Positions 7,128 to 33,000 of a DNA stretch of 34,217 nt are shown piece after piece. The number at the start of each line of letters is the position of its first letter. Within the stretch, counting starts at the first letter, position 1. Under the pieces are notes generated by a model. It was given only the letters and a program-made list of their open reading frames with translations, was not told where the DNA came from and did not search any database. The stretch is from Ectocarpus siliculosus (Eukaryota; Sar; Phaeophyceae; Ectocarpales; Ectocarpaceae), in contig FN648466.1 in NCBI GenBank assembly GCA_000310025.1, positions 1 through 34,217 of the forward strand, read 5' to 3'. A program made the position numbers and the translations under genes.

Positions 7128-7650
7128 TGTTGTCTAGGCAAAACGCGCTTACCGTGCCATTCTATGCCTTGCTCAAGCCTACAACATGCTTACCTCGACC
7201 TTCTGGTCTTTCCGTGTCTCGCCCTAGCCAGAAACACGCTTACCTCGGCCTTACGCTCGTTCCATGTCCTGCTCACAAGCTACAAACACGCGCACCTCTT
7301 GACCTTCCTCTCAAATATACATATGCCTTTCCATGCCCTGCTCAAGTCTAGAGCATGCTTACCTCGACCTTCTGGTCTTTCCGTGTCTCATTCTTGCCAG
7401 AAACACGCTTACCTCGGCCTTGCGGCCGTTCCATGTCCTGCCCAAAAGCAGTCAGAAGCACGCTCACCTTGACTTTCCTCTCAAACATGCCTTTCCATGC
7501 CCTGGTCAAGCCTAGAACATGCTTACTTCGACCTTCTGGTCTTTACATGTCTCGATCTTGTCATAAACACGTCTACCTCGGCCTATCGTTCCATGTCCTG
7601 CTCGTAAGCAGGAGCATGCTTATCTTGACCTTTAATCTCAAAACGTCTTC
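7128..7650. repeat. Nested minisatellite, ~166-bp units made of ~55-bp subunits
   Basis: Three large copies are marked by catgccctgctcaagtcta-type words near 7165, 7330 and 7497, about 166 bp apart. Each holds roughly three subunits that end in cgcttacctcggcc or close variants. Because 166 is not a multiple of three, the repeat appears in all three frames as Leu/Pro/Ser-rich ORFs. These are repeat artefacts rather than evidence of a protein. Confidence 0.8.
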
Positions 7651-11469: not shown

Positions 11470-13145
11470 GAGTTTGCTCGGCAACGAGCAAGGCGATGCG
11501 CGATTGTTTTCGCGTGTCTCCGTTCACCGGCGGGGGTAAGAGAGCCGGCAGGCGAGGGGGGGCTCGAGGTTGCGATGGTGGTGGCGCATACCTCGAGCTT
11601 CTGCCCGCCCGTTCCGGCGAGCGAAGGGGGGCTCGAGGTTGCGGTGGTGGTGGCGCTTACCTCGAGCTCCCGCCCGCCCGTCGGTGAGGCTCTCGTCTAC
11701 GGCTGTGTGGCGGTAGTGGTTTGCAGTAGGCGAAGGATGGAGGGAGCTCCTGCTACTACTGCTACTGCGGCTGCAGTCCGTAGGCATGGCCGAGGGAGGC
11801 GAGCGTCTGGAAGCCACCGCACACAGGGAATATCACCAGCTGTGGGGTGGCCCCGGCGCGTTGCGATACCACCGTCGCAGCGTCTTCTTCGTTCACGTCT
11901 TCCCGGCTCCGGCGCACATGGCGCGCCTGCATGGGCTCTTCACTGTTCAGGTCGGTAAATTGTCACTATTTTCTGGCATCTCCATCGCTGAATATGTCGG
12001 GTCATTTTGGTGCGAGGTTGGGGTACGGGTCGGTCGATTTATAGGGGGAGTTGCATGCCTTGTATTCTGCAAAATTCATTCCCGTCCCCCTCCCGTCCCC
12101 TCTCCTCCTCTCCCTGAACGTACAACCAACTGGTCCGCTCTGGTGCTGTTTCGCGTGCCTTGATATCCGATGTTGCGCGTGACAGCCGTCCGAAGAATTG
12201 ATCGTTGCCTACTTCGTGTTGCCGCTGCTCATGTTTCAGACAAGGGGTCTACAAACCCGTTAGCGCGCCCTTAATCCGCGCGTTACCGCCCCCCGCTTCC
12301 CGCTTTGCTCGGCAGCGACCGAGGCGAATGGCGACTTTTGTCGCGTGTCTCCGTTCACCGGCGGGGGCGAGAGCCGGCGAGCGAGGGGGAGCTCGAGGTT
12401 GCGATGGTGGTGGCCCATACCTCGGGCTTCCGCCCACCTGTTCCGGCGAGTGAGGGGGGGCTCGATCTTGCGATGGTGGTGTCGCATACCTCGATCTTCT
12501 GTGCGCCCGTCGGTGAGGCTCTCGTCTACGGCTGTGGGGCGGTAGAGGTTGTCGTAGGGGATGGAGGGAGCTCCTGCTACAACTGCTGCGACTGCAGTCC
12601 ATAGAAATGGCCGAGGGAGGCGAGCGTCTGCAAGCCATCGCTCACAAGGAATGTCATCAGCTGTGCTGTGGGCTTACGCGTTGCGATACCACCGTCGCAG
12701 CGCCTTCTTCGGCCACGTCTTCCTGGCTCGGGCTCGCACATGGCGCGCCTGCATGGGCTCTTCACTGTCCAGGTCGGTCAATCGTCTTTTTTATTCTGGA
12801 ACCTCCGTTGCTGTAGATGTCGGGTCATTTTGGTGAAAAGGGTAGGGCATTCATTTTATAGGGGCGTGGCATGCGTCGTCCTCTATGCCAATTCCCTCCC
12901 CTTCCCCTCTCCTCCTCTCCCCTCCCTGCCCTCTCTCCTGACCCTTCATCAGCTGGCCCGCGTTGGAGCTGTGTCGCGTGCCTTGATATCCGATGTTTGC
13001 GTATGACAGCCGTCTGAAGCTGATCGTTGTTTACGTCGTGTTGCCGCTGCTCATGTTTCAGACAAAGGATCTACAGCTCCCGTTACCGCGTCCTTAAACC
13101 GCGCGTTACCGACTCCCCGCTCCGATCACCACGGCAACGACCGGA
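11470..13145. repeat. ~831-bp tandem duplication
   Basis: Unit 1 starts near 11473 (tttgctcggcaacgagc) and unit 2 near 12304 (tttgctcggcagcgacc), an offset of 831 bp. Similarity holds through the whole unit and includes ctgcatgggctcttcactgt (11928, 12752), gatatccgatgtt and ctgctcatgtttcagacaa. A third unit appears to start near 13120 but degrades just before the assembly gap. Each unit carries a smaller direct repeat of ~68 bp around a ctcgaggttgcg(a/g)tggtggtgg core. A coding-like piece with an ATG at 11786 and a possible donor after TTCACTGTTCAG is frame-disrupted in unit 2. Confidence 0.85.
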
Positions 13146-13199: not shown

Positions 13200-13299
13200 N
13201 NNNNNNNNNNNNNNNNNNNNNNNNNNNNNNNNNNNNNNNNNNNNNNNNNNNNNNNNNNNNNNNNNNNNNNNNNNNNNNNNNNNNNNNNNNNNNNNNNNN
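13200..13299. other. Assembly gap (100 N)
   Basis: Exactly 100 unknown bases, the usual placeholder for a gap of unknown size. It lies at the end of the 831-bp tandem duplication, where collapse of further copies is plausible. Reading frames that cross it are meaningless. Confidence 0.98.
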
Positions 13300-14055: not shown

Positions 14056-16445
14056 TGGTGGAATGCTGATGTTTCGTTTCCGCCGCCGCCACCGTCTGCT
14101 CGGAGTCCGTGAGTGCATACCACAACAACTATGTACCGCTCTCACAATTACAAGTACATATTCCAAGGTGATTTGTTGGATCCCCACCCGGGACGATTTT
14201 TGGTGCACCATACTGACTGTCTTGTCGTCTTCCACTCGAATTTGGCCCGTTCGGGTCGTCGCTCCTTGTGTTTTCTGTAGGGAAGGAAGGCTGAGCACGA
14301 TAGTTCCTGCCACAACAAGCATGAGGAATAGGTGGTAAAGATGAAAACGGGAAAAGCGCAAATGTGCTGAGCTCGGGCACCATCAGCTCCGTCACCAGCG
14401 GTACGGTCCTCATCGGAGGTGGCGCGGCCACGCCGTAAGCTAGCGGAGCGGTGAGTCTCACGGTGGGCCCCAGCTCCTACGGCACGGGCGGGACGCCCTC
14501 GTTGGCGTCCGGCATGGGCATGACGGCCATGACGGGCAGTCCTGCGTCGACGGCGGCCGGAACCGGCACCACGTCTACAGGCGGGTCGGTGAGTTTGGTT
14601 GCGGGCGCAGGATCGACTGGCGGGGTGATCACGCTGGCGGCGGGTGAAGGAGGGGAGAACGGCGTCGAATCGACCATAGCCTTGTTAGTGTGTCAAGTGG
14701 GGCCGTCACGACCGGGAACAGCGGGGCCGTTATCATCGTCTCCGCCAGCGCCGGACCAACGGGTCATAGCCGTGTCATGACCTTCAGCACTGGCACTACC
14801 ACGTCGGGAAACACCAGCGCCGTCATGATCGCGGCGCCACTCTTGGGAACACCGGAGGTGACGTCAACCTGACGGTGGGCAGCGGATACACTGGTAAGGG
14901 CGGTCCGGTCGAGATTGAAGCCGGTGAGTCGAACGAGGCCATCGGGAGATCGGTGATCATCACCAGCGGTGAGGGCACGGCGACCACCAGCGGCGCGATG
15001 ACCATGCGATCGCCCAACGCCGGCGCCGACGGCGTGAGAGGCGCCATTTTGTTAGGCCAAGGCACCACCAGCGCCGGCACCAGCGGTATGATGCGCACGG
15101 GAAGTTTCGCTGCCCTCCGGGAGCCGGTGGAGCGGTGAGTCTCACGGCGGGCACCGGTCCCTACGGCACGAGCGGGACACTAATGTTGGCGGCCGGCACG
15201 CGCGTGGACAGTGGTTCTGGGTCGATGTTGCCCGGAACCGGCACCAAACAACTACAGGCTGGTCGGGGAGTCTGGCGGCGGGCGCAGGGTCGAAGGGTGG
15301 ATTGCTCACGGTGATATCGTCCATGGGCGCGCAGACCACGGTGACGGCGGGTGAAGAAGCGACCGACGGCGGCGACTTGATGATGGCGGCTAAATGAGTA
15401 GGTTTCAGCGATGATCTTGTTGCTGCGTAGAGCGGGGCCGTGACGGACGGGAACAATGCCACCGTCACCATCGTCTTCACCAGCGCCAGACCAACGGGCC
15501 ATTGCCGTGTCATGACCTTCACCTCCGACCCTACCACGCCAGGAAACACCGCCGCCGTCCGAAACGGTACATTGTAGCGGCGCCGATCTGGGGGGCACCT
15601 GAAGTGATCTGAACCTGACGGTGGGTAGCGGAACACCAGCGAGGGCGGTCCGGTCGAGTTGGCGGCAGGTGAGGTGCCCGCGGCCACCGGAGGATCGGTG
15701 ACCATCACCAGCGGCGAGAGCACGGCGGCCACCAGCGGCGCGATCACCATCCGATCGCCCAACGCCATCGCCGAGGGCGTGAGCGGTGCGGTTGTGTTGG
15801 ACTCAGGCATCACAACCTCCGACACCAGCGGTATGATGCGCAGGGGAAGTGGCGCGGCCACCCCGGGAGCCGGCGGAGCGGTGAGTCTCCCGGTGTGCAC
15901 CAGCGCCTACACCGGGGGCGGGACACTCACGTCGACGGCCGGCACAGGGATGACGGGGTGGTTCTGTGTGTATGACGACCGGAACCGGCACCACGTCCAC
16001 CGGCAGGTCGATTTATCTGGCGGCGGACGCAGGGTCGACGGGTGGATCGTTCATGGTTGTGGCCGGGCAGGACACATCATCAACGGGCGGAGCGATCACG
16101 GTGACGGCGGGCGGTAGACACATTGCGTGTGGTGACGTGAGTATGATGGACTGTTACCTGTGTATATCAGCAGGGACAAGCGGTCAAGCTATCCGGGGTG
16201 CAATGACCATGGTAGCTGCACCGGAGACACTGGTCGTGGACCTGTTGCTGTGTCGAGCGGGGTCGTCACCACCAGGAACAACGACACCGTCACCATCGTC
16301 TCCGACAACGCCGGACCAACGGGCCCCAGCCGTGTCCGACCTATAGCTCTGGCACAACCGCGTTTGGAAACACCGCCGCCATCGCGATCGGCAGCGGCGC
16401 CGCTCTGGGGGGCACCGGAGGCGAACTGAACCTGATGGTGGCCGT

Positions 16446-17460
16446 GGATACACCGGCGAGGGCGGTCTGGTCGAGGTGGTGGCCGGCGAGTCGACCGCGG
16501 CCACCGAAGGATCGGTGACGATCACCAGCGGTGAGGGCACGGTGACCACCAGCGGCGCGATCACCATGCGATCGCCCAACGCCTGCTACCTAGGACGTGA
16601 GCGGGGCCGTTGCGCTGAGCTCGGGTACCATCAGCTCCGGCTCCAGCGGTTCGGTGCTCATCGGAAGTGGCACGGCCACGCCGGGAGGCGGCGGAGCGGT
16701 GAGTCTCACGGTGGGCACCACCGCTACACCACCGGCGGCACACCTATGTTGTTGGCGACCGGCACGGACGTGACAGGCGGCTCTATATCGATAGTGCCCG
16801 GAACCGGCACCAACCTACGGCCTGTTCGGGGAGTCTGGCGGCGGGTGCAGGGTCGACGGGGGGATCCTTCACGGTGGCATTGTTGGCGGGCGCGCAGACC
16901 ACGGTGACGGCGGGTGAAGAAGGGACTGACGGCGGCGACTTGATCATGACAGCGAGATGTGTTGTGTTCAGTGGTGACCTTGTCGTTGCATCGAGCGGGG
17001 CCGTGACGGACGGGAACATCGTACCGTCACCATTGTCCCCGCCAACGCCTGACCAACGGGCCATGGCCGTGTCATGACCTTCACGTCCGGCTCTACCACG
17101 TCGGGAAACACCGCCGCCGTCCGAAACGGTACATTGTAGCGGCGCCGCTCTGGGGGGCACCCGAGGTGATCTGAACCTGACGATGGGCAACGGAAACACC
17201 GGCGAGGGTGGTCTGGTCGAGTTGGCGGCAGGTGAGGTGCCCGCAGACATCGGAGGATCGGTGACCATCACCAGCGGCGAGAGGACGGCCACCACCAGCG
17301 GCGCGATCACCATCCGATCGCCCAACGCCGGCGCCGAGGGCATGGGCGGCGCCATTGTGTTGGGCTCAAGCACCACCACCTCCGGCCCCAGCGGTATGAT
17401 GCGCAGGGGAAGTGGCGCGTCCACGCCGGGAGCCGGCGGAGCGGTGAGTCTCCCGGTGTG
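16446..17460 (+). repeat. Recent ~1-kb duplicated block, copy 1
   Basis: Almost identical to 20312-21326 at a constant offset of 3866 bp. The copies share a 13-bp frameshifting replacement (16584-16596) and an internal stop (17137-17139). Confidence 0.85.
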
Positions 17461-17664
17461 CACCAGCGCCTACAACACGGGCGGGACACTGACGTTGGCG
17501 GCCGGCACGGGCGTGACGAGTGATCCCATGTCGAGTGGGGCCGGAACCGGCACCAAACATCTACGGGCTGGTCGGTGAGTCTGGCTACGGGCGGCGCGTC
17601 GACCGGTGGATCGTTCATGGTGGTGGCCGGGTGGGGCACATAATCAACGGGTGAGACGATCACG

Positions 17665-18768
17665 GTGACGGCGGGTGTAGAAGGCACGAACAGCGTCGCC
17701 TTGATCACGGCAGCTGAACGTGTTGGTAACAGTGATGACCGTGTTGCTGCATCGAGCGGGGCCGCTACGGACGGGAACAACGCAAACATCGTCATCGTCC
17801 CCACCAACGGCGGACCAACGGGCCATTGCCGTGTCAGCATCTTCACCTCCGATAGCACTGCCGCCCTGCGGGGTACCCGAGGTAACCTGAGCATGACGGT
17901 GTGGAGCGGATACACCGGCGAGGGCGGTCTGGTCGAGGTGGTGGCCAGTGAGTCGACCGCGGCCACCGGAGGATCGGTGACCATCACCAGCGGCGAGGAC
18001 ACGGCGACCACCAGCGGCGGGGTCACCATCCGATCGCACAACGCCGGCGCCGGGGGCGTGAGCGGCGCCGCTGTGTTGGGCTCAAGCACCACCACCTCCC
18101 AGCGGTATGATGCGCAGGGGACGTGGCGCGTCCACGCCGGAAGCCGGCGGAGTGGTGAGTCTCCCTGTGTTCACCATCGCCTACACAGCGGGCTGGACGC
18201 TCACGTAGACGTCCAGCACAGGCATGACGGGTGGTCCTGTGGGTATGGCGGCCGGAACTGGCACCACGTCTACCGGCAGGTCGACATGTCTGGCGGCAGG
18301 CGCAGATCGACGGCATCAACGAGCGGAGCTCTCGCGGTGACGGCGGGTGGTGGACACACTGTATGTGATGCCGTGAGAATGACGGCCGGGTGTGGTGACG
18401 CCTCTGTAGACGGTTACCTGTGTATATCAGCACGGGCAAGCGGTCAAGCTCTCCGGGGTGTAATGACGATGGTAGCTGGCACTGGAGACATGCGTGCTGT
18501 GTCGAGCGGGGTCGTCACCACCGGGAACAATGACACCGTCACCATCGTCTCAGACCAAGCCGGACCAACGGGCCACAGCCGTGTCATGACCTATAGCTCT
18601 GGCACAACCGCGTTTGGAAACACCGCCGCCGTTGGAATCGGCATCGGCGTCGCTCTGGGAGGTACCGGAGGCGACCTGAGCCTGACGGTGGCAGCAGAAA
18701 CACCGGCGAGGGCGATGTGGTCGAGATGGCCGCCTGCCAACCGACCGCGGCCACCGGAGGATCGGTGA
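17665..18768 (+). pseudogene. Longest surviving open segment of the coil-repeat array
   Basis: An open frame of 367 codons within the array. The first ~150 codons and the last ~120 keep the coil pattern (GGSVTITSGED near residues 110-120, SGGVTIRS, GGDLSLTV). The middle part, after about 18090, reads in the wrong frame relative to the coils (Trp/Arg/His-rich, for example SPCVHHRLHSG) before the pattern returns near 18320. The segment is therefore open by chance across two compensating frame changes and is unlikely to be a working protein on its own. Confidence 0.5.
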
Positions 18769-20311
18769 CCATCACCAGCAGCGAGAGCACGGTGACCACC
18801 AGCGGCGCGATTACCATCCGATCGCCCAACGCCGACGCCGAGGGCGTGAGCGGCGCCGTTGTGTTGGGCTCAAGCACCACCACCTCCGGCCCCAGCGTTT
18901 CGGTGGTCATCGGAAGTGGCGCGTCCACGTCGGTAGCCGGCGGAGCGGTGAGTCTCCCGGTGTGCACCAGCGCCTACAACACGGGCGGGATACCGACGTT
19001 GGCGGCCGGCACGGGCGTTACGCGTAGTCTCATGTCGAGTGGGGCCGGAACCGGCACGAAACTACAGCGGACTGGTCGGTGAGTCTGGCTGCAGGCGGGG
19101 CGTCGACCGGTGGATCGTTCATGGTGGTGGCCGGGTGGGGCACATTATCAACGGGTGAGACGATCACGGTGACGGCGGGTGTAGAAGGCACGGACGTGAC
19201 AGGCGGCTCTATATCGATAGTGCCCGGAACCGGCACCAACCTACGGCCTGTTCGGGGAGTCTGGCGGCGGGTGCAAGATCGATGGGGGGATCCTTCACGG
19301 TGGCATTGTTGACGGGCGCGCAGACCACGGTGACGGCGGGTGAAGAAGGGACTGACGGCGGCGACTTGATCATGACAGCGAGATGTGTTGTGTTCAGTGG
19401 TGACCTTGTCGTTGCATCGAGCGGGGCCGTGACGGACGGGAACAACGCTACCGTCACCATTGTCCCCGCCAACGCCTGACCAACGGGCCATGGCCGTGTC
19501 ATGACCTTCACGTCCGGCTCTACCACGTCGGGAAACACCGCCGCCGTCCGAAACAGTAGCGACGTCACTCGGGAGGGCACCCGAGGTGATCTGAACCTGA
19601 CGGTGGGCAACGGAAACACCGGCGAGGGCGGTCCGGTCGAGATGGCGACAGGTGACACCGGAGGATCGGTGACCATCACCAGCGGCGAGAGCACGGCGAC
19701 CACCAGCGGCGCGATCACCATCCGATCTTTCAACACCGGCACCGAGGACGTGAGCGGCGCCGTGGTGTTGGGGCTAAAGTACGACAATCTCCGGCCCCAG
19801 CGGTTCAGTGCTCATCGGAAGTGGCGCGGCCACGCCGTGAGTAGGCGGAGCGGTGAGTCTCACGATGGGAACCGGCGCCTACAACACGGGCGGGACACTG
19901 ACGTTGGCGGCCGGCACGGGCGTGACAGGCGGTCCTGTGTCGATTGCGGCCGGAACCGGCACCAAACATCTACGGGCTGGTCGGTGAGTCTGGCTGCAGG
20001 CGGGGCGTCGACCGGTGGATCGTTCATGGTGGTGGCCGGGTGGGGCACATCATCAACGGGTGAGACGATCACGGTGACGGCGGGTGTAGAAGGCACGAAC
20101 AGCGTCGCCTTGATCACGGCAGCTGAACGTGTTGGTAACAGTGATAAACTTGTTGCTGCATCGAGCGGGGCCGTCACCACCGGGAACAAACATCGCCTTC
20201 GCCTCCGCCAACGGTAGACCAACGGGCCATTGCCATGTCAGCATCTTCACCTCCGATAGCACTGCCGCCCTGCGGGGTACCCGAGGTAACCTGAGCATGA
20301 CGGTGTGGAGC

Positions 20312-21326
20312 GGATACACCGGCGAGGGCGGTCTGGTCGAGGTGGTGGTCTGTGAGTTGACCGCGGCCACCGAAGGATCGGTGACGATCACCAGCGGTGA
20401 GGGCACGGCGACCACCAGCGGCGCGATCACCATGCGATCGCCCAACGCCTGCTACCTAGGACGTGAACGGGGCCGTTGCGCTGAGCTCGGGTACCATCAG
20501 CTCCGGCTCCAGCGGTTCGGTGCTCATCGGAAGTGGCACGGCCACGCCGGGAGGCGGCGGAGCGGTGAGTCTCACGGTGGGCACCACCGCTACACCACCG
20601 GCGGCACACCTATGTTGTTGGCGACCAGCACGGACGTGACAGGCGGCTCTATATCGATAGCGCCCGGAACCGGCACCAACCTACGGCCTGTTCGGGGAGT
20701 CTGGCGGCGGGTGCAGGGTCGATGGGGGGATCCTTCACGGTGGCATTGTCGGCGGGCGCGCAGACCACGGTGACGGCGGGTGAAGAAGGGACTGACGGTG
20801 GCGACTTGATCATGACAGCGAGATGTGTTGTGTTCAGTGGTGACCTTGTTGCTGCGTAGAGCGGGGCCGTGACGGACGGGAACATCGTACCGTCACCATT
20901 GTCCCCACCAACGCCGGACCAACGGGCCATGGCCGTGTCATGACCTTCACGTCCGGCTCTACCACGTCGGGAAACACCGCCGCCGTCCGAAACGGTACAT
21001 TGTAGCGGCGCCGCTCTGGGGGGCACCCGAGGTGATCTGAACCTGACGATGGGCAACGGAAACACCGGCGAGGGCGGTCTGGTCGAGTTGGCGGCAGGTG
21101 AGGTGCCCGCAGACATCGGAGGATCGGTGACCATCACCAGCGGCGAGAGGACGGCGACCACCAGCGGCGTGATCACCACCCGATCGCACAACGCCGGCGC
21201 CGAGGGCATGAGCGGCGCCGTTGTGTTGGGCTCAAGCACCACCACCTCCGGCCCCAGCGGTATGATGCGCAGGGGACGTGGCGCGTCCACGCCGGGAGCC
21301 GGCGGAGCGGTGAGTCTCCCGGTGTT
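20312..21326 (+). repeat. Recent ~1-kb duplicated block, copy 2
   Basis: Partner of 16446-17460. It carries the same frameshifting 13-bp replacement (20450-20462) and the same stop (21003-21005). It also has a stop at 20857-20859 that copy 1 lacks but the more distant unit at 15428-15430 shares, so the copies are mosaic. Confidence 0.85.
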
Positions 21327-21451
21327 TACCATCGGCTAAACACCTTCCTTTACCCCCTCGGCCTGCTCCCCGGCCGGGGTCGAAATCGACCTAGTGAGTC
21401 CCTCGCGGGCGAACCAGGCCACAACAGATAGTAGGCGGGTGGTGTCCCAAG

Positions 21452-22477
21452 GTGCAACTCACCGCCGCGCTGGCGGGAGGTGTGTATGGACAGACGGTGG
21501 TAGTGGCGGGAGGTGTGTATGGACACTGTTCCCGCGGCAGCAATGCAAAGCGGCAAACTGCACCTAGCAACCACCGTCGCGGAAAGCGTGGCCCACGAAG
21601 CTGGAGGGGTAGAGAGATTCGTAAATACTACGTCAGTAAGGAACGCTCGCGGGAGAAGGGAGACAACCGCGGGCACCGCGGGGAGGAAGTGCTGCACCCT
21701 CCTCGTCAAAACACCACAGGCAAGAACCGAGCTCTGCAGAGATGGATTGATGCAAGGAAACTCGCCGCTCGGAAAATACGGAAGAAAGCACACCCGCAAC
21801 GCGAGGCGGGCCGAGAGAGACAGGAGACAGCAGCGGCGTCAAAGCGGCTGCGAAGAAGAAGGCACGGGAGGGCGACCTATCGTTCGGCACGTTCAACGTA
21901 CGCACGCTCGCCTACAGCGGTAGGAACCCCATCGGTCACAACGTGATGACGATCACGTAGATCTGTTCCGCGACCGGCTATGATGTGATAGGACTTCAGG
22001 AGACCCGACGAGAGGAGCAAGGTTCAATTGCACATGACGGGTACGTGATCATCTGGAGTGGCGCCTCTGCTGGCACCAAGCACAAGAGGGGCGTGCACGG
22101 TGTGGGCATAGCGATCAAGGAGGCCATGTGGGAGAGTGTGGGCGAGGAAGGTAGGACGACAGAGTGCATTAGCCCGAGTCTGATGAAGGTGCGTCTACAA
22201 ATTGGCCGCACCTGCGGAGTACCGTCTTCCATTTCCAGGGACACGACCTTTCCGGGAAACCGAGACGAATCAGCGACGAGAGGAAGTAGCTGCTCCCATT
22301 TTGGCCACCATTCCGTCTACTGGAACGACCTGCGCAACTTCTTCGGGATGGAACAGCAACAGAAGCAAGCAGGACGACCACAAAGGCAAGCAAAAAACCA
22401 AGCTCTTGAAGGAGATAAATGTTTCGTATATGTTCTTGGTGTTGACGTCTATCTCGGGAGACTTTAACAGGGTCGGC
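21452..22477 (+). pseudogene. Non-LTR retrotransposon (LINE) remnant with endonuclease domain
   Basis: The clear part is an apurinic-type (exonuclease-endonuclease-phosphatase) nuclease. FGTFNVRTL (from 21883) matches the first Asn-containing motif. GYDVIGLQETRREEQG (from 21979) holds the catalytic Glu. YVIIWSG and HGVGIAIKEA follow, then MKVRLQIGRT near 22183, YWNDLRNFFG near 22318, and GDFNRVG at 22457-22477, which matches the Asp-x-Asn motif of LINE endonucleases. A TAG at 21958-21960 interrupts the first motifs, and further frame changes occur after 22200. Upstream (21452-21870) is a basic Arg/Lys-rich stretch that is probably the start of the element's ORF. I see no reverse transcriptase downstream, so the copy is truncated or scrambled and dead. 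Confidence 0.75.
21471..21525. repeat. Two-copy 33-bp-spaced direct repeat
   Basis: tggcgggaggtgtgtatgga followed by ca occurs at 21471-21492 and again at 21504-21525, within the 5' part of the LINE remnant. Confidence 0.85.
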
Positions 22478-30025: not shown

Positions 30026-33000
30026 ACAACAAACAACACCATCGAAACGGCTGCAGCAGCCGCAACTCAGGGCGGGCAGCAAGCCACACAACCTACCTCA
30101 ACGCCCCCAAAACAAAAAGCCAACCAACACTTCTCACAATCGAGAACGGTGTTCTGCAAAGAATCTTCCTCCCTCAAGCTCATCGCGGGGTCGAACAGCA
30201 GCTCCGCGGCCCTGTAGCGCTCCCGCCCGAGTGTGACCCGAGTGCCATCTGGGAGGGTGTAAGGCTTCGACATGCTCAGCTCTGACGCGTTGTCGACGCC
30301 GTTTACATCGCGGTAAAGTCGCACGTACAGTTCCACGTACCCAGTAGTTATAATAGTTATTGACGGCAGCAGGAAGAACCAGCGGAGAACACGAAGAAGC
30401 ACGTCAGGACATTGTGAATGTTGCAACAGCAGAAAAATCGACAGCACGTGCCGGTGCACCAAGATAATGAGCGTGTGCCGTCTGTTGGGACAAGCAAATC
30501 TGTTTGGAAGAACCGATGCTGGGAAAGGGGGGCGACGCGGAATCAATTGGGCAAACCTCGGGAAGAACGAGTTCAAGTCACACGACCGGGTGTGTGTATG
30601 TGTGAACTTGATGCGATTCTGTTCAGGATCTCGAGCTGCCAGGCTACACAAGGAATTGTGGCGATCCTGCAATGCTGCGTGGCGTGCATCTCTCAACTGA
30701 GTGTCTCCTCCATTCTCTGTCTTCCCTGTTTGCCTCTTTTTGTGTGTGATTTGTCGCTTACCATAGACCTGAATGTTTTGCCTGTCTCTATCTCCGTCTC
30801 TGTCTCTCTAGCTGCCAAACATGGCATGTCTCCCTCTCTCTTGTCTGTCTGTTGTTTCTCTATGTGTCAAGCCTATCCGACTCGGTTCTGTATGTCTCTT
30901 GTCTCTGAGTGCCCCTGGTCCTGCATCTCTTGGTTGGTCAATGGCGTGATGTCGTGTCTTCTCACCCATCTTAGCGTTGTCCTTGTCAACGTCCTCCGAC
31001 ACGAAGCAGACCTTCGCCTTGAGAGCCTCGAGCTCCATCACGTCGCAAGGGTCGTCGGGCTCGAACTCGTCGCCCCCCATCAATCCCACCTGTTGCACAC
31101 AAAAGAGAAATATTGTTATCGTGTTTCTCTATTCTATGCTGTTGTCATCGTCATCATGATGGTCGTTGTTCTAAATATGTGTGTTGTCCTCGCCATCGTT
31201 ATTGCTGTTGCTTCTGCTGTTGTATTTAGTGTTGTGTAACGTAGGTGACACAAGATAACACACCCCGCTGGCCGATCTTCAAGGCTCGATTACTCGACGA
31301 CGAAGAGGACGCAGAAAACGGACCGATACGTTTCCGGAAAGCTCTCCACGAGACGGATTCAACGCCGCCATTCTCGGCGCTGCCACCCGTTCTGTTGTGG
31401 AGATATCGAGCTTTCAAGACCGGTTGACGGTGTGTGGTATCTTGCGTCACCTACGGTATTCGCATCGAAGAAAAGCTCACCTCTACCTCCCCTCACCAGC
31501 ACCCCCCGGTATTCCGAGGATGTCCCAAGTGCTGGTACCAGACACACTCGACTAAACCGGCACACGACTCGACTCGGTCACCGTTGACACTAGAATCTCC
31601 AACTCAGGGACAAAAGACGACGACGACAACGCCTCCCCTTTACACCCAAGAAGCAAACAACAGCCCTGACAACTCCCGCGAGGTCGGTCGGTTGTGACGT
31701 ACGTCTCAGCATCGTAACACGTGCGGGGGTGTTTAGAAGCCGAGCTGAAACCATTAGGCTCGTCAGCCGCTGACTAGCGCAATACTTCGATTTCGCTTTC
31801 GAAAGGCTTGTCACCTCTCAACGATTAGACTCGTCAGCCGCTTACTAGCGTAATACCTTGATTTCGCTTTCGAAAGTTTTGTCAGCGCTGACTAGTCTAG
31901 CGATTTGGTTTCGAAGATGTACCACAGAAACACCGGCAGCAGCAGCAGCAGCGACGTTTCTCGCGTCGTACCGCACTGTACCTTTGCGTTGACCAAGGCC
32001 GCGAGGTGCCTGGTGATGTCCTTGCCTCCGAGACCAACCCATCGGATGCCCGTTTCCAGCACAAAGCCATCGAAGATGGGAGCCACCTGCCATGATGTGG
32101 ATTTCATTTTTCGCGGTATTTTTACGGCACGGAAATGTTATGTTGTCAAAGGCTGTCGTTCGTATTGCTGCCGTTGGTGGTAACGGTGGTTGTTGCTGAT
32201 ATCGTCCTCATAGGCCTTTTTTTTCTTTCAAGGCATTGGTCCTGGCTACCTCCAACGGAGATGCAACAAAAAAAAGAGAGTGTGGGGGGGGGGTTACAAT
32301 GCAGGACGAACAAGCAGACCGCCGCAAACGTTTTGCCGAGGGCGCAAGCAAAATGTGACCAACTCGCCCTTGTTTACCCAACCAACTCCTATTCCCCGTG
32401 CCAACGACAAGGTCTACAAGGTGAAGCGCGATGCGCCGCCGCGTCCACCGGAAGGCCGACGGACACGTCATATGTATTGCCACCACTATTTTTCACGTCA
32501 CACCCTGTGTTACGATTCGTCACCCACGGCGTATGAGTAGCCCTAAAAATCTAAAAAATATTGTTGAGCCCGTTACCCGCAGGGGAGACATCGTTGTGTG
32601 CTGCTCGGGAAACCTTAGACATAAAGGTATTTTCCGCTGACACTATGAATTAATTGCTATTTTATCGCAGACTCTTTTCCATGGATAGAGATGAAATCGT
32701 TGCGTCATACCAAGAAAAAAACAAAAAATCTCGCCGGTGTGACGTGAACCAATTTCTGCACCCAACCTCTCATCACGCCCACGACCAGGCCACGCTGAAG
32801 AACGGGGCCGCGATGGGCTGCAACCTCTCATCATGCAAATCAGATAAAGGCGCGGGAATCAATCCTCAACCATTTAGACCACCAACGCGATCGAGGCCCT
32901 CACCATGTACCCCCTAAAAATTACCCTCCCTCTCTCTCCACTCGCCGAGCAAACAAACTCGCCTGTGTGCCCGATTCTCCGATATCTACGACCAGGCCGG

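Follow-up and report, generated by a model that had tools for sequence, protein, structure and literature searches.

A decayed array of coil-repeat coding sequence in Ectocarpus siliculosus: loss of constraint, spread of lesions and the timing of multiplication

A tandem array on the plus strand of Ectocarpus siliculosus contig FN648466.1 (14362–21343) carries stop codons and frameshifts that recur in separate units, and raises the question of when the units were multiplied relative to the death of the gene from which they came. The initial annotation proposed that a repeat-protein gene had been amplified as DNA after it was already inactivated. Analysis of the whole stretch of 34,217 nucleotides, referred to here as the window, supports that order of events only in part. 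The array is probably what remains of a coil-protein gene, no longer expressed or at any rate no longer constrained, in which an open unit was multiplied at about the time selection ended and then underwent neutral decay and recombination.

Array layout and coding origin

The array was delimited by self-BLAST, unit anchors, a unit HMM and tblastn with an intact relative, L001. Self-BLAST and the anchors find the units arranged in tandem, head to tail. The units span 14362–21339, with array homology extending to 21343, and both ends fall within a repeat, a gene start or end being recognised at neither. The initial annotation counted ten ~750-bp units; the array contains nine such units and one 331-bp partial unit (~9.5 copies, ~7 kb), the nine anchored copies having a spacing of 712–904 bp by the first anchor. 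Pairwise identity between units is 70–97%, and the unit HMM matches 11 stretches of the window at E ≤ 0.01, every one inside 14348–21340. The partial first unit, U0p (14362–14692, 331 bp; unit alignment and HMM), is followed by U1 (14693–15427; unit anchors and alignment), U2 (15428–16252), U3 (16253–16990), U4 (16991–17751), U5 (17752–18501), U6 (18502–19416), which reaches 915 bp and contains an extra partial repeat, U7 (19417–20160), U8 (20161–20856) and the truncated U9 (20857–21339), all on the plus strand.

A profile of open array pieces scanned over genome contigs returned L001 as the sole locus. L001 (JARLJI010000109.1) is a 6105-base contig filed under a Rhodoferax MAG, with one frame of 2035 uninterrupted codons that is open at both contig ends. 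All 41 tblastn matches of L001 to the window fall in the array and on the plus strand, covering 3574 of its 6982 bases, whilst seven scrambled arrays (five shuffled, one reversed, one codon-shuffled) gave no match. The array thus has the homology to coding sequence expected of a pseudogene, and its description as a former coding region is borne out by this intact relative. Differences between the window and L001 at codon positions 1, 2 and 3 amount to 0.509, 0.310 and 0.579, and in the positive control the coils of L001 differ among themselves by 0.456, 0.348 and 0.617; both patterns bear the mark of a constrained past. Coding on the minus strand was considered and rejected: long minus-strand ORFs exist, yet comparable ones lie opposite the real frame of L001 as well, and no L001 tblastn match lies on the minus strand.

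L001 and the array share a 15-residue coil period and matching coils, for example GG.VTITSG and R[ST].NA...G.SG, the best segment reaching 45% identity. They differ in that the frame of L001 is uninterrupted whereas the array is broken by lesions, and in that the internal units of L001 hardly resemble one another at the DNA level (a single 43-bp match) whereas the window units are highly alike. A lag of 246 residues is strongest only in the C-terminal 635 residues of L001 (z 5.0), a part chosen after the spacings had been seen; over the entire protein a lag of 216 outranks 246, and when Ser and Gly are left out 246 falls outside the top 14. The 738-bp unit of the array may nevertheless be inherited protein architecture, given this 246-residue spacing in part of L001.

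Among 60 genomes scanned with the coil profile (L001's own and 59 relatives), only L001's own is positive. With none of the 59 related genomes carrying the profile, the contig may be a mis-binned eukaryotic one. Scans of viral contigs yielded no confirmed relative, and tblastn against phages and plasmids gave no match. Pfam recognises no family in any of seven window pieces or in L001; the best NCBIfam match has E 0.087, the only PHROGs match (E 0.013) is to an unknown family, and by sequence nothing in the PDB falls below E 0.27. Searches for RNA families and tRNAs returned none. In the portion of the literature consulted no paper on this coil-protein family turned up, although this does not mean that there is none. 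Together, L001 and the array point to an unnamed coil-protein family that has an intact member, L001.

Lesions and their passage between units

Exact string search places the 13-for-12 replacement TGCTACCTAGGAC at 16584 and 20450. It places ACATTGTAGCGG at 15569, 17131 and 20997, giving TAG at 15575, 17137 and 21003 (the acattgtag stop), and GCTGCGTAGAGC at 15422 and 20851, giving TAG at 15428 (gctgcgtagagc) and 20857 (the gctgcgtag stop). The initial annotation had located all of these correctly, and they occupy homologous places in the multiple alignment of units. The replacement, a net 1-bp insertion, occurs only in U3 and U8, and the acattgtag stop, accompanied by 7 extra bases, only in U2, U4 and U9; the gctgcgtag stop stands at the start of U2 and of U9. 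A further common lesion, absent from that annotation, is TGA at 17050 in U4 and 19477 in U7. U4 also has TAA at 17641, and U5 has TAG at 18206.

Frame-changing states number 17, of which 7 occur in at least two units, by a hand count from the alignment gap table that omits rows from the ragged end insert of U2/U5 and from the end where U9 is truncated. A frame path through the array, built on the author's own residue scores, changes frame 29 times and meets 12 in-frame stops, of which the final one lies at the array end; of the 3574 bases covered by L001 tblastn matches, it coincides with the best match in 3273. The array thus carries disabling lesions, as a pseudogene does, at a load of roughly 4 per unit (29 switches of frame plus 11 internal stops in ~9.5 units).

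Shared lesions had been taken to mean that dead sequence was copied. By self-BLAST and mosaic analysis, the block at 20264–21343 (plus strand) is a copy of 16399–17478 (plus strand), lesions included, with 95.9% identity across 1081 columns (of the 1074 columns compared, 42 are mismatched) and 98–100% around the 13-for-12 lesion. The replacement at 16584 and 20450 is common to U3 and U8 by one recent ~1.1-kb block copy, U8 being a mosaic with a U5-like first part and a U3-like remainder. The acattgtag stop is shared in two ways, by U4 and U9 via the block copy and by U2 via older common ancestry. Around this stop U2 is 90–93% identical to U4 and U9, so that the lesion predates this divergence; U7, 92% identical to U4 otherwise, is without the 7 extra bases. 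The gctgcgtag stop is absent from U4, to which U9 is most closely related. It lies in an 18-bp patch at 20845–20862 (plus strand) which is identical to 15416–15433, differs from the source of the block (U3/U4) at four sites and brings the stop at 20857. We interpret this patch, which overrides the block, as the product of conversion or of a small-scale exchange.

Such mosaicism extends along the array, where identity for the same unit pair swings between about 82% and 100%. The stretch 19187–20595 (plus strand) is related to 16761–18186 at 89.4% over 1435 columns, in patches between 82% and 100%. Within U6, sequence jumps out of register from U4-like to U3-like at 19187–19192, on the common 6-mer GGCACG. 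Four-gamete conflicts rise from 123 of 577 (21%) within 30 bp to 2236 of 5143 (43%) at distances of at least 200 bp, a rise matched by none of 300 permutations, and the longest identical runs exceed permutations in two comparisons (p 0.046 and 0.003). The four-gamete decay and the mosaic patches are those of units undergoing exchange or homogenisation. The proposed copying of lesion-bearing sequence is upheld: it proceeded via the ~1.1-kb block copy, the out-of-register junction and the conversion-like patches.

Loss of constraint and the order of events

The initial annotation predicted dN/dS (omega) near 1 between units, and named strong purifying selection as one finding that would overturn its reading. 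Omega is 1.12 (0.91–1.42) for 31 old pairs, 1.40 (1.02–2.02) for 6 young pairs and 1.15 (0.94–1.40) for all pairs (44 of 45, one having too few codons), values drawn from mutually dependent pairs of mosaic units. In the two wrong frames, omega for young, old and all pairs is 0.79, 1.02 and 0.99, and 1.06, 1.13 and 1.13. Omega between units is thus near 1 as predicted, and like that of the wrong frames, with strong purifying selection not detected. Simulations on a star tree of 8 tips without conversion, 25 per value, returned 0.27–0.37 for a true omega of 0.3, 0.42–0.59 for 0.5, 0.60–0.89 for 0.7 and 0.75–1.30 for 1.0.

Among 645 codons changed from the majority, stops number 11 against 10.3 expected, synonymous changes are fewer than expected (151 against 195.5), and nonsynonymous changes number 483 against 439.3. 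One 21-codon stretch of the window units has an excess of third-position changes (52, 67 and 95 of 756), which counts against the neutral reading. Strict neutrality fits imperfectly, given the young-pair omega and the synonymous deficit, yet the deviation is not toward constraint. The units have diverged without detectable coding constraint, as a pseudogene does, with omega as in wrong frames and stops close to the number expected.

The majority-rule unit is open: 738 bp (246 codons), with no phase breaks and no stops in 240 majority codons. Each lesion is confined to a subset of units and none is common to all, the closest to a general one being a frame change at column 752 that six of the nine covering units carry, in one of two forms. 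Together, the open majority unit and the restriction of each lesion to a subset indicate that multiplication began from readable sequence. The claim that the gene was already inactivated before amplification is therefore not supported; copying of dead sequence is seen for later rounds only. Inactivation outside the unit, at the promoter or the 5' end, may have preceded amplification. The neutral signal at all depths in turn implies little or no constrained evolution after multiplication.

The ancestral gene would have encoded a large Gly/Ser/Thr/Ala/Val-rich protein of ~15-residue coils. Its 738-bp (246-codon) higher-order unit, then open, would have been multiplied, or last homogenised, about when selection ceased. 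Afterwards, neutral mutation would have added stops and frameshifts at a non-coding rate, whilst the tandem layout kept recombining, through the ~1.1-kb block copy, the out-of-register junction where coils match over 6 bp, and short patches resembling conversion, and so moved lesions between units. From the homology to an intact frame, the lesions and their sharing, the neutral divergence, the mosaicism and the open majority unit, we infer the order of open unit, multiplication without selection and lesion spread, with unequal crossing-over and gene conversion as the presumed molecular events.

It is possible, though rather doubtful, that multiplication of the array took place while the gene was alive, with concerted evolution keeping its units alike, and that the gene died afterwards, only later exchanges copying lesions. 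Such a gene would leave an open majority unit, and the 246-residue spacing in part of intact L001 suggests that units of this kind exist in a live gene. The oldest pairs, however, bear no trace of a constrained period in their omega, and only homogenisation shortly before death would mask it. We regard it as unlikely that the gene was broken before its first multiplication and that the array in its entirety arose by expansion of dead DNA, as the initial annotation held in its strict form. Neutral divergence at all depths, the column-752 change in its two forms and the copying of lesions would all agree with such a beginning, but no lesion occurs in all units and the majority unit remains open across its 246 codons. 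With ~4 lesions per unit gained since, a long prior dead period should have left a fixed one; a rough Poisson bound limits that period to ~0.7 of the array's age, which leaves room for a short one.

That the lesions are an artefact of assembly or base calling is very unlikely. Tandem repeats are difficult to assemble, and the assembly is draft-like, with a 100-N gap at 13200–13299, but the two block copies disagree in 42 of 1074 columns, 41 of the 54 differences between U3 and U8 are variants present in other units, and the lesions include substitutions and multi-base changes beyond homopolymer slips. Least probable of all is a living gene whose lesions are spliced out, recoded or intronic: the window does resemble intron-bearing eukaryotic DNA, with an isolated actin-like segment on the minus strand, but most frame breaks are changes of 1–7 bp within continuous coil homology, with no intervening sequence, omega resembles that of the wrong frames, and stops are as many as by chance.

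Satellite likeness, the ancestral protein and the rest of the window

Satellite DNA consists of tandem repeats that evolve in concert through exchange between units. The array resembles it in being head-to-tail, non-coding by these tests and made of exchanging units, and differs in that it amounts to ~9.5 copies spanning 7 kb, all at a single place in the window, and that its coding origin can still be read. Within the window, the array lacks the high copy number and the length of satellite arrays. The earlier description of the region as behaving like a satellite thus holds for its mode of evolution and fails on scale.

Two published systems offer partial parallels. Spider silk genes are homogenised repeat-protein genes whose units are kept alike by recombination (PMC9779670); the array shares such recombination-homogenised repeat-protein units, but silk genes are alive whereas the array is without detectable constraint. 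In the barley chloroplast, an rpl23 pseudogene exchanges sequence with its gene (PMC6620283); disabled copies recombine in both cases, whereas exchange in the array is among its own units.

A tentative suggestion, less probable than the history preferred above, is that a repeat imposed by the fold, of 15-residue coils within a super-unit of 246 residues, survives the death of its gene as a substrate for recombination. Coil matches of a few bases would misalign units and pass breakages along, so that a repeat-protein gene could turn directly into a satellite. If this is so, protein architecture continues to shape neutral DNA. As a still legible stage between a gene for a repeat protein and tandem DNA that no longer codes, the array lets origin, loss of constraint and lesion spread be separated within one locus. 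The timing of amplification relative to gene death would be testable if intact orthologues exist. In itself the array is interesting but ordinary genome decay.

In the window and in L001 alike, the strongest short period is a lag of 15 residues, a regular coil spacing of the kind that a beta-solenoid would have. AlphaFold placed a strand about every 15 residues in an L001 piece, at low confidence (mean pLDDT 46.9, pTM 0.39), and a window piece was also modelled at low confidence (mean pLDDT 51.0, pTM 0.29). Foldseek with a low-confidence model gave 24 PDB matches at E ≤ 10, the best at 2.4 and none at E ≤ 0.001; many of the 24 are left-handed helices or adhesins by name. The beta-solenoid product guessed in the initial annotation is thus plausible rather than confirmed, in that the period fits whilst the models are of low confidence. 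A solenoid role at the cell surface is a guess from repeat chemistry.

Elsewhere, the window is without gene-dense reading frames. Downstream of the array, an ORF at 21985–22467 matches no Pfam family and may resemble a LINE-type endonuclease. Further repeats include a tandem array at 1–2863, beginning at the window edge (436-bp unit, 6.7 copies, 91% matches, inner 23-bp repeat), a 169-bp tandem repeat at 7155–7584 (2.6 copies, 84% matches), and two ~830-bp copies at 11473–13121 (82% identity, 68-bp sub-repeats) that end just before the 100-N gap. On the minus strand, an ORF at 30067–30696 contains an actin-like segment (Pfam Actin 1.3e-07; PDB best 5.5e-07), apparently a single exon of a gene for actin or an actin-related protein.
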